From positions 124,001 through 188,000 of the forward strand of contig JAMPIW010000007.1 in assembly GCA_040183005.1 (NCBI GenBank): DNA of 64,000 nt, in the 5' to 3' direction. This DNA comes from Gammaproteobacteria bacterium. Lineage in GTDB: Bacteria > Pseudomonadota > Gammaproteobacteria > Ga0077554 > Ga007554. This document shows, piece after piece, positions 4,135 through 12,061 of this stretch. The first letter of the stretch is position 1, and each line of letters opens with the position of its first letter. The notes under the pieces are model-generated. The model did not search any database. It was not told where the DNA came from and saw nothing but the letters and a program-made list of their open reading frames with translations. The position numbers were made by a program, and so were the translations under genes.

Positions 4135-4194
4135 AATGTCAAATGTGTCTGTGTTTGAATGGGAAGTGGCTTGAGGTGGCGTTGTTGTCCCATG

Positions 4195-5340
4195 CTACCG
4201 CGCACTACCGGCTTTTTTGATGGACTCATGGATGCCCCTGATGCCGCGTACCCATGGTTTTGCAATATACATGTTTTTTGGCAGATCCCTTGTGGCCTCT
4301 TTGGCGGCATCCTCCGTGGGGTAGATCCCATACAGTAGGGAATACATGCCGTGACTGCCTCTGAAATATGACGCCTTGCGCTGGAGGCCATCGGTTTTTT
4401 TGATAAAATTTATCAGCGCGGCCTCATCTGTCATGCTCGATAGCTGAATGGTGTAGTGTGCCGGATTTTGCGCCAGCAGCCAGGATTCGCGTTGTATTGT
4501 ATCGCCACGATCAGGTGGGGTGGTATTTCGCGCCACGATTTCCTGCGTGGCTGCTGCCGTAGCAGGTTGAGAGGGGAGGGCAGCAGGCGCCGGTGCAGTG
4601 GGTTGCGCCAATATTGGAGGCTGCGGCGTCTTGTCGATCTGGGGCGCATTGGCGCGAGTCATGATTGACAGTGCATCCGCAATAACCGGCGATTGCTGGT
4701 AGTTGTCGAGTATATATTTGGCGCGAGCCGCAGCATTGCTGCGGTCCCCTTGTTCCAGAAAGTATTTGGCCATATTTAACTCGTGCTGGGCCATCGTGTT
4801 GCGCAACAGCAGCATACGTTGAGCCGCATCTTTGGCAAATCGGCTGGTCGGGAAGCCTTGCAAGAGTTCAGCGAAGTATTGAAACGCGCGCCGTGCCTGC
4901 GCGGAGTCCTGTGGCGTGGCGTTCGCGGGTTTTACGGCCTCAAGCGTGGCGATCCCGTCCTGAAAGGCGATCAGCCCCCGTTCGTAGTAGGCATAGTCCA
5001 CGTTGGGATGATTGGGGTTTTTGGCGATAAATTGCTCTGCCATGTCCACTGCGGCATTGCTCTGGCCGTGCTGGCGGATTCCAGTGGCGGCGTCCAGCAG
5101 TGCTTGCTGGGTATGGCCGGCCAATGGATAGCGTAACGTGAGGGTTTCGAGGCGGCCTGATGCGCGCTCATAATCGCCCTCCAGGAGCGCTGCCTTGCCA
5201 TCGTTGTAAAGTTGCACGTCGCTCCAGTCTTTGGCGCTGTCGCGCTGTGGGGCTTGGCTTGTGACTGTCGCAGGGGCGGCGGCGCAGCCGGCGAGGATAA
5301 ATAACAGTAATGCGAAGTAGTGCAGGTTCATCAGACGCAT
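4195..5340 (-). CDS. BamD-like TPR lipoprotein with C-terminal SPOR domain
   Basis: The 381-residue protein starts with a lipoprotein signal (lipobox LAGC, Cys about residue 19). Its TPR region (about 40-240) is plainly paralogous to the adjacent BamD: both contain HPNVDYAYY, a GLxxFxxGIxTxE stretch, AKDAAQRMLLLRN and a GDxxxAAxRAxYxxxNY block. The last BamD repeat is missing. In its place is a proline/alanine-rich linker (about 245-285) and then a SPOR-like domain (about 300-370), beginning HYTIQLSSMTDEAA and ending in a KPWVRG strand. SPOR domains bind denuded septal peptidoglycan. I infer an outer-membrane lipoprotein that links BAM-type interactions to the division site. It is probably transcribed with bamD, 60 bp downstream. 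Confidence 0.85.
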   Translation of the reverse strand: MRLMNLHYFALLLFILAGCAAAPATVTSQAPQRDSAKDWSDVQLYNDGKAALLEGDYERASGRLETLTLRYPLAGHTQQALLDAATGIRQHGQSNAAVDMAEQFIAKNPNHPNVDYAYYERGLIAFQDGIATLEAVKPANATPQDSAQARRAFQYFAELLQGFPTSRFAKDAAQRMLLLRNTMAQHELNMAKYFLEQGDRSNAAARAKYILDNYQQSPVIADALSIMTRANAPQIDKTPQPPILAQPTAPAPAALPSQPATAAATQEIVARNTTPPDRGDTIQRESWLLAQNPAHYTIQLSSMTDEAALINFIKKTDGLQRKASYFRGSHGMYSLLYGIYPTEDAAKEATRDLPKNMYIAKPWVRGIRGIHESIKKAGSAR

Positions 5341-5375: not shown

Positions 5376-6338
5376 ATGTCAAGCACCGAGCATTTATCTT
5401 CCAAAATTCCCCATGAAATGGCCGGTATGCGTCTGGATCAGGCGTTGGCCGAGCTGTTTTCCAGCTATTCGCGTGCGCGCCTGCAACAATGGATACGCAA
5501 CGGGCTGGTGACGGTCGACGACCGGCAGTTACGCGCCAAGGATAAGGTGCTGGGTGGGGAGCGCGTTGATGTGATGGCGACGCTGGAGGACGAGGTGTCG
5601 TCGCAGCCACAACGGATTCCTCTGGAAATACTCTATGAGGACGAGACACTGTTGGTGATCAACAAACCTGCCGGACTGGTGGTCCACCCAGCGGCGGGTA
5701 ATCCGGATGGCACGATGCTCAATGCGCTGCTGCATCATGCCCCGGAGCTGGTCAGTGTGCCGCGCGCGGGGATTGTGCATCGCCTGGATAAGGAAACCAG
5801 TGGCCTGCTGGTGGTGGCGCGAACGCTCAAGGCGCAAACCCATCTCGTGCAACAGCTTCAGGAACGTGCTTTTGAGCGTGAATACGAGGCGGTAGCAGTG
5901 GGGGTGATGCTCTCCGGCGGCAGCGTGGATGCTCCAATCGGGCGCCATCCCGTGGACCGCAAGCGTATGGCGGTATCCCAACGTGGCAGACCAGCGGTGA
6001 CTCACTACCGTGTCGCGGAGCGTTTCCGCGCCCACACCCATGTCCGGGTGCATCTGGAGACCGGGCGCACTCACCAGATCCGTGTTCATATGGCGCATAT
6101 CCGTTATCCGCTGTTTGGCGATCCCGTGTATGGCGGGCGCTTGCGCATCCCGCCGCAGAGCAGCGAACAATTCACCGAGGCTCTGCGCAATTTCAGGCGT
6201 CAGGCCCTGCACGCCGTGCGCCTCGGGCTGACCCATCCCGAGAGTGGCGAAGTGATGCAGTGGCAGGCGCCGCTACCCGCCGACATGGATTATCTGCTGC
6301 GAGTATTACGAGAAGACAATGCTGCCCATGAGCAATGA
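5376..6338 (+). CDS. rluD: 23S rRNA pseudouridine synthase RluD
   Basis: RluD isomerises uridines in helix 69 of 23S rRNA (positions 1911, 1915 and 1917 in E. coli). The 320-residue product has an N-terminal S4 RNA-binding domain (MRLDQALAELFSSYSRARLQQW) and the RluA-family catalytic motif HRLDKETSGLLVVA with the catalytic Asp. The late TGRTHQIRVHMAHI motif is also present. I chose the ATG at 5376 because the longer frame would begin inside the divergent BamD-like gene. Divergence from the bamD cluster and a downstream pgeF homologue both match the E. coli order. Confidence 0.93.
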   Translation: MSSTEHLSSKIPHEMAGMRLDQALAELFSSYSRARLQQWIRNGLVTVDDRQLRAKDKVLGGERVDVMATLEDEVSSQPQRIPLEILYEDETLLVINKPAGLVVHPAAGNPDGTMLNALLHHAPELVSVPRAGIVHRLDKETSGLLVVARTLKAQTHLVQQLQERAFEREYEAVAVGVMLSGGSVDAPIGRHPVDRKRMAVSQRGRPAVTHYRVAERFRAHTHVRVHLETGRTHQIRVHMAHIRYPLFGDPVYGGRLRIPPQSSEQFTEALRNFRRQALHAVRLGLTHPESGEVMQWQAPLPADMDYLLRVLREDNAAHEQ

Positions 6339-8226: not shown

Positions 8227-8760
8227 ATGAACAGATTAACTAACCATTGGTTCATGCTGACGGTGGTGGGCAAGGATCGCCCCGGCATTGTGGCGCGCGT
8301 GACGGCTGCGCTCTACGAAGGCGGCTGCAACCTCGGCGAGGCCTCCATGACGCGCCTGGGCGGCAATTTTACGGTCATGCTCATGGTGCAGCATGACGGC
8401 GATACCGCATCGCTGACACGGCTCGTGGCCACGGTGACCGAGTCGCTGGGCCTGAAACTTCATGTCGATAAAATCGCGGGGGACTTGTACCATCACCAGG
8501 AACCCGATGTGCGCATCGCAGTCTTCGGTGCTGATCGCGCCGGTATTGTGGCGCAAGTGACCGGGGTGCTGGCCGAGGCGGGCCTGGATATCCTTGATCT
8601 GCAATCCAATGTGGCGGGCAGCGTGGACAAGCCTATCTATATCATGCAGATCGAAGGCCGCGCCCTGGAGGGTATCCCGGCGCTGGAGTCAGCGGTGGCG
8701 GTGCTGGATGGCAAAGGCATACAGGTGCACCTCGAACCTATCGATATCATGATCGGCTAG
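8227..8760 (+). CDS. GcvR-like protein with two ACT domains
   Basis: The 177-residue protein is two ACT domains in tandem. The first (about 8-80) starts MLTVVGKDRPGIVARVTAAL and the second (about 92-170) starts RIAVFGADRAGIVAQVTGVL; both carry the DRxGIV amino-acid-binding turn. This layout matches the GcvR family, which in E. coli antagonises GcvA to control the glycine cleavage system. No gcvA or gcv genes are visible here, so the regulatory target is unknown. The def gene follows after 4 bp and is probably co-transcribed. Confidence 0.8.
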   Translation: MNRLTNHWFMLTVVGKDRPGIVARVTAALYEGGCNLGEASMTRLGGNFTVMLMVQHDGDTASLTRLVATVTESLGLKLHVDKIAGDLYHHQEPDVRIAVFGADRAGIVAQVTGVLAEAGLDILDLQSNVAGSVDKPIYIMQIEGRALEGIPALESAVAVLDGKGIQVHLEPIDIMIG

Positions 8761-10695: not shown

Positions 10696-12061
10696 CATGA
10701 GCCTGAGCGAGGGCATGGGTGAGATATTGCTCAGGCGGCGCGATGTTGGGTTTTGTTAATCAATTGAAAGAGCGTTGTCCGTGCCTCGTTGAGGCGTTGG
10801 GCGGCCTCATTATCGCTGCATTCCGTGGCCATTGCATCCGGTTTTTCCAGAGTGATTCCCGGGACGAGATGCTCTTCCACCTTCGGTAGGGAGCGCAGTT
10901 TCTCATAGGGTGTCATCATATCCTGATAACGGTAGCGCTTGCGTATCCGTCCCTTCTTGTCCGTGTACTCTGTTGGAAAGTGACAGGGACGGTGGAAGTT
11001 CAGGTAAGGCGACAGCACCTCGATGGTGAACTCATTCACCCGGCTGGCGAAGTGCTGCGGGATATGGCTGTAACCCAGGTGCTTGCGTACCGTCGACGCA
11101 TTCTTGCTTTCTGCCAGCGCATTGTCGTTGGTCTGGCGCGAGCGTGATTTGGTCTGCTCGATGCGCAGCTTCTCCAGCAGTTCTGCTACCTTGTGATTGA
11201 TGTACTCCGATCCGTTATCGCTGTGAAACCCGCGAATTATAAAGGGAAACGCTGCCATCATGGCTGCCAGCACCGGCAGCAGGAATGCCTCGCTAATTTT
11301 CTCCACGGCACAGATCGCCTGACACTGGGTGACCTCATCCACCGCATTGATCAGATACACCCCTTTGATCCCGTCCAGGTCGCCCTGATGCACACTGTCG
11401 ACGCGTAGGTATCCGGGGGCACCGCCAGGCGCGGGCTTGCGCCGCTCGCCAATGTTGATCCTGGTCGGGCGGGTCTTGTCGAACGACCCGCGCACCGATT
11501 GATAGGTTTTATGCTGGCGCAGATTGTACAGGTGGCCGTTGGAAATGCCCGCCAGGCGCGTGTAACGGGCATCCCCATGCACCTTGCACGCCCGCTCACA
11601 CAGCTTGCGGGTGGTAGTGCCGGCGAGGGTGCCATGCAGGGCATCCATCTGCGCCAACAGGCGGATGTCTTCTGCCGTATAGCGCCGCACAAACGGCACG
11701 GTCGGCGCACGGCGCCGGTCCTGGATGTTCCCGCCGTCGGTGAACTGCGTAATGCAGCGCGCCACCTGGGCACGGGAAAACCCCGTCACCTTGCGCAGGT
11801 ACTGCCGCAGCAGGCCTTTGTCGGCACGCTTGCAGCGCGTGTAACCAAACAGCCGGAGCGTGTCGGCCATCCAGCTGTAGGCTTTATTGCGATCCGTCAA
11901 TGTAAACGAAATGGACTCGTTGCCCGACACAAAGGCGCGTACCTGTGTCAGCGTTTGTAATCCTTGGGTATGCAATGTCACGATCATGCCTCCATGATCC
12001 CAACTTTTGCCCCGCCAGGCTCATCTCACGGTGGAAATACACCCCTTCGTTCAGGCTCATG
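10696..12061 (-). mobile_element. insertion sequence with DDE transposase
   Basis: A 1.37-kb element lies between radA and gshA and contains one transposase gene on the minus strand. The ends carry imperfect 18-bp terminal inverted repeats: CATGAGCCTGAGCGAGGG at 10696-10713 and the complement of CATGAGCCTGAACGAAGG at 12044-12061 (16 of 18 match). Similarity continues inward (GTGAGAT and GTTGGG blocks), so the true ends could extend a few bases either way, perhaps to a CCAAT on each side. No clear target-site duplication is visible. The IS family was not assigned. Confidence 0.75.
10731..11987 (-). CDS. IS transposase with rve/integrase-core DDE domain
   Basis: The 418-residue protein has an N-terminal helix-turn-helix region (about 45-80, GLLRQYLRKVTGFSRAQV) and an integrase-core catalytic domain. 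The DDE residues are visible as D197 (RVDSVHQGD), D257 (FHSDNGSEY) and E293 (NALAESKNAS), giving the DD(35)E spacing. The reading frame is intact, so it may be active. This resembles IS481- or IS3-type catalytic cores, but the family is not certain. The stop codon lies inside the left inverted-repeat region, which is common in compact IS elements. Confidence 0.88.
   Translation of the reverse strand: MIVTLHTQGLQTLTQVRAFVSGNESISFTLTDRNKAYSWMADTLRLFGYTRCKRADKGLLRQYLRKVTGFSRAQVARCITQFTDGGNIQDRRRAPTVPFVRRYTAEDIRLLAQMDALHGTLAGTTTRKLCERACKVHGDARYTRLAGISNGHLYNLRQHKTYQSVRGSFDKTRPTRINIGERRKPAPGGAPGYLRVDSVHQGDLDGIKGVYLINAVDEVTQCQAICAVEKISEAFLLPVLAAMMAAFPFIIRGFHSDNGSEYINHKVAELLEKLRIEQTKSRSRQTNDNALAESKNASTVRKHLGYSHIPQHFASRVNEFTIEVLSPYLNFHRPCHFPTEYTDKKGRIRKRYRYQDMMTPYEKLRSLPKVEEHLVPGITLEKPDAMATECSDNEAAQRLNEARTTLFQLINKTQHRAA

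Follow-up and report, generated by a model that had tools for sequence, protein, structure and literature searches.

Outer-membrane lipoproteins that carry a SPOR domain, such as RlpA, and TPR lipoproteins that serve as scaffolds are established kinds of envelope protein. NlpI, LpoA and CpoB are TPR or TPR-like envelope helpers, which scaffold wall enzymes or coordinate constriction. The BAM subunit BamD contacts BamA through one site that includes R94, R97, L98 and N99, and through another that includes V181, E183, Y184 and E187 together with an R197-E373 salt bridge; alanine at R94, R97 or Y184 lowered affinity for BamA, whereas Y185A did not (PMC11592675). Client sites on BamD are Y62 and R197 (PMC10945584). 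SPOR domains prefer denuded glycan, and the septal localization of DamX needs Q351, S354 and W416, with K418 forming part of a basic patch (PMC6895207). In E. coli, BAM is enriched at midcell (PMC8620860) and the insertion of proteins into the outer membrane peaks at division sites and is suppressed by mature peptidoglycan (PMC9242858).

Here we analyzed a stretch of 64,000 nucleotides from a gammaproteobacterial genome (the window), in which a gene upstream of bamD encodes a BamD-like TPR domain fused to a SPOR domain. No description of a BamD-with-SPOR protein was found in the literature searched, nor are we aware of a dedicated protein that couples the midcell bias of BAM and of insertion to the septal wall. 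The fusion shares with BamD (YfiO; TIGR03302/PF13525) a lipobox, the TPR fold, the HPNVDYAYY and QRM motifs and a position beside rluD. Unlike BamD, it is an extra gene next to an intact bamD, lacks half of TPR5, has lost most of the BamA-contact residues, and has gained a linker and a SPOR domain. Its C-terminal SPOR domain resembles that of DamX (PRK10905) in having the WLLxQxPxxYTxQL entry and, at the DamX site, the same kinds of residue (Q, W and basic). However, the fusion has neither the ATPase-like cytoplasmic part nor the transmembrane anchor of DamX, bears a lipoprotein signal with a predicted outer-membrane anchor, and lies between rluD and bamD and not at the aroB locus. It resembles RlpA as a predicted outer-membrane lipoprotein with a C-terminal SPOR domain and, if our reading below is right, in its septal site, but a TPR domain stands in place of the DPBB lytic domain (Pfam searches gave no DPBB match in the fusions), and the window's genome has an RlpA-like protein of its own. 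NlpI, LpoA and CpoB are likewise helical-repeat envelope scaffolds, the role predicted for the fusion; its BamD-type array is nevertheless not homologous to theirs at family level, and it carries a SPOR domain.

Domain architecture and locus of the fusion

The fusion matched the Pfam YfiO family at 158.8 bits (cut-off 25) and the NCBIfam BamD model TIGR03302 at 177 bits (cut-off 81.4), and a PDB sequence search matched it to BamD chains at E 5e-36. The BamD hallmarks named in the initial annotation were all located, with HPNVDYAYY at residues 111-119, QRML at residues 174-177 and the lipobox at the N-terminus (Table 1). The SPOR fold that it had placed near residues 300-370 was also found by domain search, as PF05036 (29.2 bits, E 1.2e-6; cut-off 21). 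The DamX SPOR structure 2lfv matched residues 292-374 (E 7e-7), and the NCBIfam DamX model gave a partial match over residues 231-372 (E 3.8e-10, 39.5 bits against a cut-off of 256). YfiO and SPOR domains were both present in 15/15 diverse fusions, with PF05036 at E 0.01 or better in each, and the lipobox Cys was invariant in all 15. With Ala at the +2 position, the fusion lipoprotein is expected to be sorted to the outer membrane.

In a structure search, the predicted TPR part matched solved BamD chains (E 2.4e-9). A model of the SPOR domain alone, built from 4 sequences (pLDDT 57), predicted the beta-alpha-beta-beta-alpha-beta order with low confidence, and Foldseek with this model returned generic ferredoxin-like matches, with no SPOR protein among the matches listed. 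Support for the SPOR call thus comes from Pfam, from the sequence match to DamX and from the conserved residues described below. A linker and SPOR domain do follow the TPRs, as first proposed, but the proposal that they replaced the last BamD repeat was overstated, as only the second half (second helix) of TPR5 and the tail are missing. The BamD match stops at about residue 222 of the 245 in E. coli BamD, at profile position 188 of 203, and the fusion does not contain the five complete TPRs of BamD. In the fusions of family f22, the TPR5 region is still there ahead of the linker.

Intact bamD lies 60 bp downstream of the fusion, confirming the reported tandem arrangement; the two proteins are 38% identical over 230 aa. 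The short spacing, together with the lack of a terminator-like site on that strand, makes co-transcription of the fusion and bamD probable. As rluD and bamD are direct divergent neighbors in E. coli K-12, the fusion represents an additional gene that has been inserted between the two. In the window's genome, two genes are properly of BamD type; a third match to YfiO, a weak one, resembles CpoB/YbgF. The genome also has a BamC-family gene and five other SPOR proteins, which from their sequence features are FtsN-like, DedD-like, RlpA-like, DamX-like and L,D-transpeptidase-like.

Table 1. Features of the rluD-fusion-bamD locus, numbered by position in the window.
Feature	Position	Strand	Basis or remark
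Canonical bamD, 260 aa	3352..4134	minus	Full-length YfiO match, PF13525 E 1.1e-69
Gap between fusion and bamD, 60 bp	4135..4194	minus	No terminator-like site on minus strand
BamD-SPOR fusion CDS	4195..5340	minus	ORF call and domain searches; 381 aa, stop included
DamX-type SPOR region, residues 286-378 (Pfam core 293-362)	4207..4485	minus	Pfam, PDB sequence search, conserved residues
Pro/Ala-rich linker, residues 232-285, probably disordered	4486..4647	minus	AlphaFold pLDDT <50 at 236-306
BamD/YfiO-like TPR domain, residues 40-231	4648..5223	minus	PF13525 E 2e-46; TPR5 without second half
Lipoprotein signal peptide, residues 1-19	5284..5340	minus	Lipobox LAGC (residues 16-19), Cys19, Ala at +2
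rluD, divergent	5376..6338	plus	ORF list; start taken at 5376 (listed ORF from 5310); adjoins bamD as in E. coli

Distribution of the fusion

All seven members of the window's family (f1) that have the locus carry the fusion (G000, G001, G002, G003, G005, G006 and G007). In the only family member without it (G004, 97% complete), bamD, the fusion and the cognate rluD are all absent genome-wide, which probably reflects an assembly gap over the rluD-fusion-bamD region. Profile searches of 369 gammaproteobacterial genomes recovered this architecture in another six families (f22, f71, f75, f81, f128 and f144). The domain pair thus recurs beside bamD in a scattered set of 7 of about 182 sampled gammaproteobacterial families, and most gammaproteobacteria are without it. 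In all seven families the fusion lay immediately or almost immediately upstream of bamD, in the same orientation, and its other flank was rluD wherever the contig extended that far. Among 109 rluD-bamD loci, a set that was enriched for matches and gives no estimate of frequency, 85 had no BamD paralogue, 21 had the fusion and 3 had a paralogue without SPOR. Across the phylum, 398 genomes were sampled, and only that of the window yielded a match at E<=1e-80.

Additional BamD-like genes were seen at some of these loci. In G342 (L104:3195-4691, plus strand) and G134 (L117:2746-4059, plus strand), an extra BamD-like TPR gene lies between rluD and the lipoprotein fusion, giving three BamD-type genes in tandem; its product has a signal peptide, is apparently not a lipoprotein, and carries two SPOR domains. 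The SPOR-less paralogues found in the same arrays (L100:3524-4792, plus; L103:6572-7186, minus; L107:5031-6017, minus) are nested among the fusions in the tree, and are probable cases of SPOR loss or fragments. Family f35 has another BamD-like lipoprotein that lacks SPOR (L115:5647-6555, plus; L054:83-913, minus); it lies downstream and not upstream of bamD and looks like a separate duplication.

Conservation of BamA-contact and SPOR residues

Residue retention was compared between 109 bamDs and 15 non-redundant fusions at 86 bamD-conserved columns (E. coli numbering). Median retention in the fusions was 77%, and at BamA-contact positions it fell to 7% for R97, 7% for Y184, 20% for Y185 and 40% for V181 (p = 0.002 for these four against the other 82 columns, a test that draws on few published E. 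coli contacts, in surface residues of a kind that drift in any paralogue). Columns 188, 190, 192 and 193, near the BamA contacts, were also among the lowest retained. Low retention at columns 64, 65, 131, 135 and 136, outside the known contacts, showed that the loss extends beyond the BamA face. The client-site residues Y62 and R197 were each the same or similar in 73% of fusions, which is about average, and the TPRs have kept most of their buried and turn positions. As evidence about constraint, and no proof that binding is lost, this pattern points to a BamD fold that has been kept while its BamA face was largely lost. The window protein has A106, Y193 and R206 at the positions of R97, Y184 and R197; since its genus retains Tyr at 184 and Arg at 197, the fusions of this genus may still make some contact with BamA.

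Q299, S302, W363 and R365 of the window protein correspond to Q351, S354, W416 and K418 of DamX, and across 21 fusion SPOR domains Q351 was kept in 19/21, W416 in 18/21 and K418, as Arg, in 18/21. The exceptions were mainly two proteins of family f81 and one extra SPOR copy. In these f81 fusions (L119:4049-5377, plus; L120:5863-6924, minus) the key Gln and Trp are lost and the TPR part persists, so that glycan binding has possibly been changed or lost.

Selection on the fusion

Among genus members, dN/dS was 0.13-0.17 for the TPR part and 0.16-0.26 for SPOR, compared with 0.29-0.44 for the linker, where constraint is relaxed, and 0.05-0.11 for bamD. The more distant pair G006/G007 gave 0.12 (TPR) and 0.18 (SPOR). 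These low values imply that both modules are used: TPR and SPOR are under purifying selection and the linker is freer, as expected for two working modules on a tether. Given this selection on both modules and the conservation of the architecture in related genomes, the fusion is not a chance arrangement.

Origin of the fusion

The initial annotation had suggested that the fusion arose by duplication and domain capture, with the adjoining bamD as its parent. Duplication and capture are supported. A recent parent in the adjoining bamD finds no such support as stated: in a tree of BamD domains all bamDs formed one clade (84/93) and every fusion fell outside it. The fusions of f1 were the nearest of all to the bamDs and did not join the bamDs of f1. 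It is thus unlikely that the window's fusion was copied recently from its neighbor, though a constrained tree joining the f1 fusions with the f1 bamDs was not rejected (p-AU 0.28). Overall the tree, whose deep joins are uncertain because of long branches, favors an older split from bamD and leaves local duplication unrejected.

A topology with all fusions in one clade was rejected (p 5e-5). This test omitted the SPOR-less paralogues nested among the fusions, and so cannot distinguish a single origin from several. In a species-proxy tree (bamD + RluD), f1 was placed apart from the other fusion-bearing families, which is compatible with transfer, multiple loss or independent origin; these trees do not discriminate among a single old origin with losses, horizontal spread, and several origins at one and the same site. 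A tree of SPOR domains with those of DamX (97 columns) did not resolve the donor of the SPOR domain.

Possible functions of the fusion

We consider it an even call that the fusion is a lipoprotein of the outer membrane whose TPR scaffold, repurposed from BamD, is brought to denuded glycan at the septum. The BamD-derived TPR superhelix, freed from BamA docking and linked flexibly to a DamX-type SPOR domain, would be held by its lipid anchor in the inner leaflet of the outer membrane. Through binding of its SPOR domain to the denuded glycan that septal amidases produce, the protein would gather at late division sites, bridging the outer membrane and the septal wall. There the TPR groove could act as a scaffold for a partner, which may be a wall enzyme, a factor in constriction or an outer-membrane protein that is still unfolded, and the outcome would be outer-membrane invagination or assembly coupled to septal wall splitting. 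In favor of this reading stand the invariant lipobox Cys, the retained SPOR residues, the purifying selection on both modules, the low retention at BamA-contact columns, the constant position beside bamD and the usual set of septal SPOR proteins (FtsN-like, DedD-like, RlpA-like and DamX-like) elsewhere in the genome. The f81 fusions that lost key SPOR residues, the low confidence of the SPOR model, and the Tyr at 184 and Arg at 197 in the window's genus speak against it. A general tether between outer membrane and peptidoglycan, with the TPRs as a mere spacer and no division role, would need only a lipid anchor and a glycan-binding domain on a long linker. We think this improbable, as the TPR part (dN/dS 0.12-0.17, against 0.29-0.44 for the linker) is more constrained than a spacer needs and SPOR domains prefer denuded glycan (PMC6895207). 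It is harder still to see the fusion as a tandem duplicate in decay that no longer has a function. The gene does evolve faster than bamD, and partial or SPOR-less neighboring copies occur in G150 and G206, but its open frame, its lipobox, the purifying selection on both modules and its maintenance in seven families make decay scarcely credible.

The initial annotation had proposed that the protein brings BAM-type activity to the division site, or acts there as a decoy competing with BamD. Both proposals are weakened, since both need the BamA-binding face and the BamA-contact positions are among the least retained. Recruitment of BAM clients, also suggested there, may still apply, as the client sites Y62 and R197 persist in most fusions, if at about the average rate. 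For the same reason a substitute BamD or a BamA decoy seems less likely than a scaffold. A competitor titrating BamA at the septum would find a basis in the retained BamD fold and in the Tyr that still matches Y184 in the window's genus; with the face it should retain among the most changed parts of the protein, we rate it very unlikely. An accessory BAM factor, with altered binding of BAM or its clients, which focuses the assembly of outer-membrane proteins at the division site, where BAM and new porins are enriched in E. coli, is a real if minority possibility. In each family the gene adjoins bamD and shares its strand, and client-site Y62 and R197 are mostly kept, although at about the average for conserved columns and thus unspecifically. 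BAM is itself enriched at midcell (PMC8620860), mature tetrapeptide-rich peptidoglycan inhibits BAM and insertion is preferred at division sites (PMC9242858), and Pal is an ancillary factor of the Caulobacter BAM complex (PMC3359395). Against such a factor, R97, Y184, Y185 and neighboring columns are largely lost, and with half of TPR5 gone, the fusion lacks part of BamD's C-terminal region. A related reading, which we hold tentatively and find rather unlikely, is that of a dedicated BamD-derived lipoprotein in which recognition of denuded glycan would place outer-membrane protein assembly, through clients or a non-canonical BAM, at the septum.

Under the preferred scaffold reading, the fusion may couple growth or constriction of the outer membrane to the splitting of the septal wall, and its partner may belong either to wall splitting and constriction or to outer-membrane protein assembly. 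The adjacency to bamD and the midcell bias of BAM (PMC8620860, PMC9242858) keep the latter in play. A conserved lipoprotein that combines BamD with a reader of septal glycan, encoded beside bamD, is a natural candidate for a link between the septal wall and outer-membrane biogenesis; if confirmed, it would connect the processing of the septal wall directly, at the molecular level, with that biogenesis. Even if the fusion has left the BAM pathway, it would represent the reuse of an essential BAM subunit as a septal scaffold. For annotation, 'BamD' matches of about 350-500 aa adjoining bamD are not BamD.

Other features of the window and its genome

A few kb beyond rluD in the window, an ORF of 418 aa (10731-11987, minus strand) resembles an integrase-type transposase. 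Elsewhere in the same genome, a frame of 445 residues (L006; G000:C1, about 8255-8470) reads as an L,D-transpeptidase that carries a SPOR domain at its C-terminus, which is an unusual pairing.
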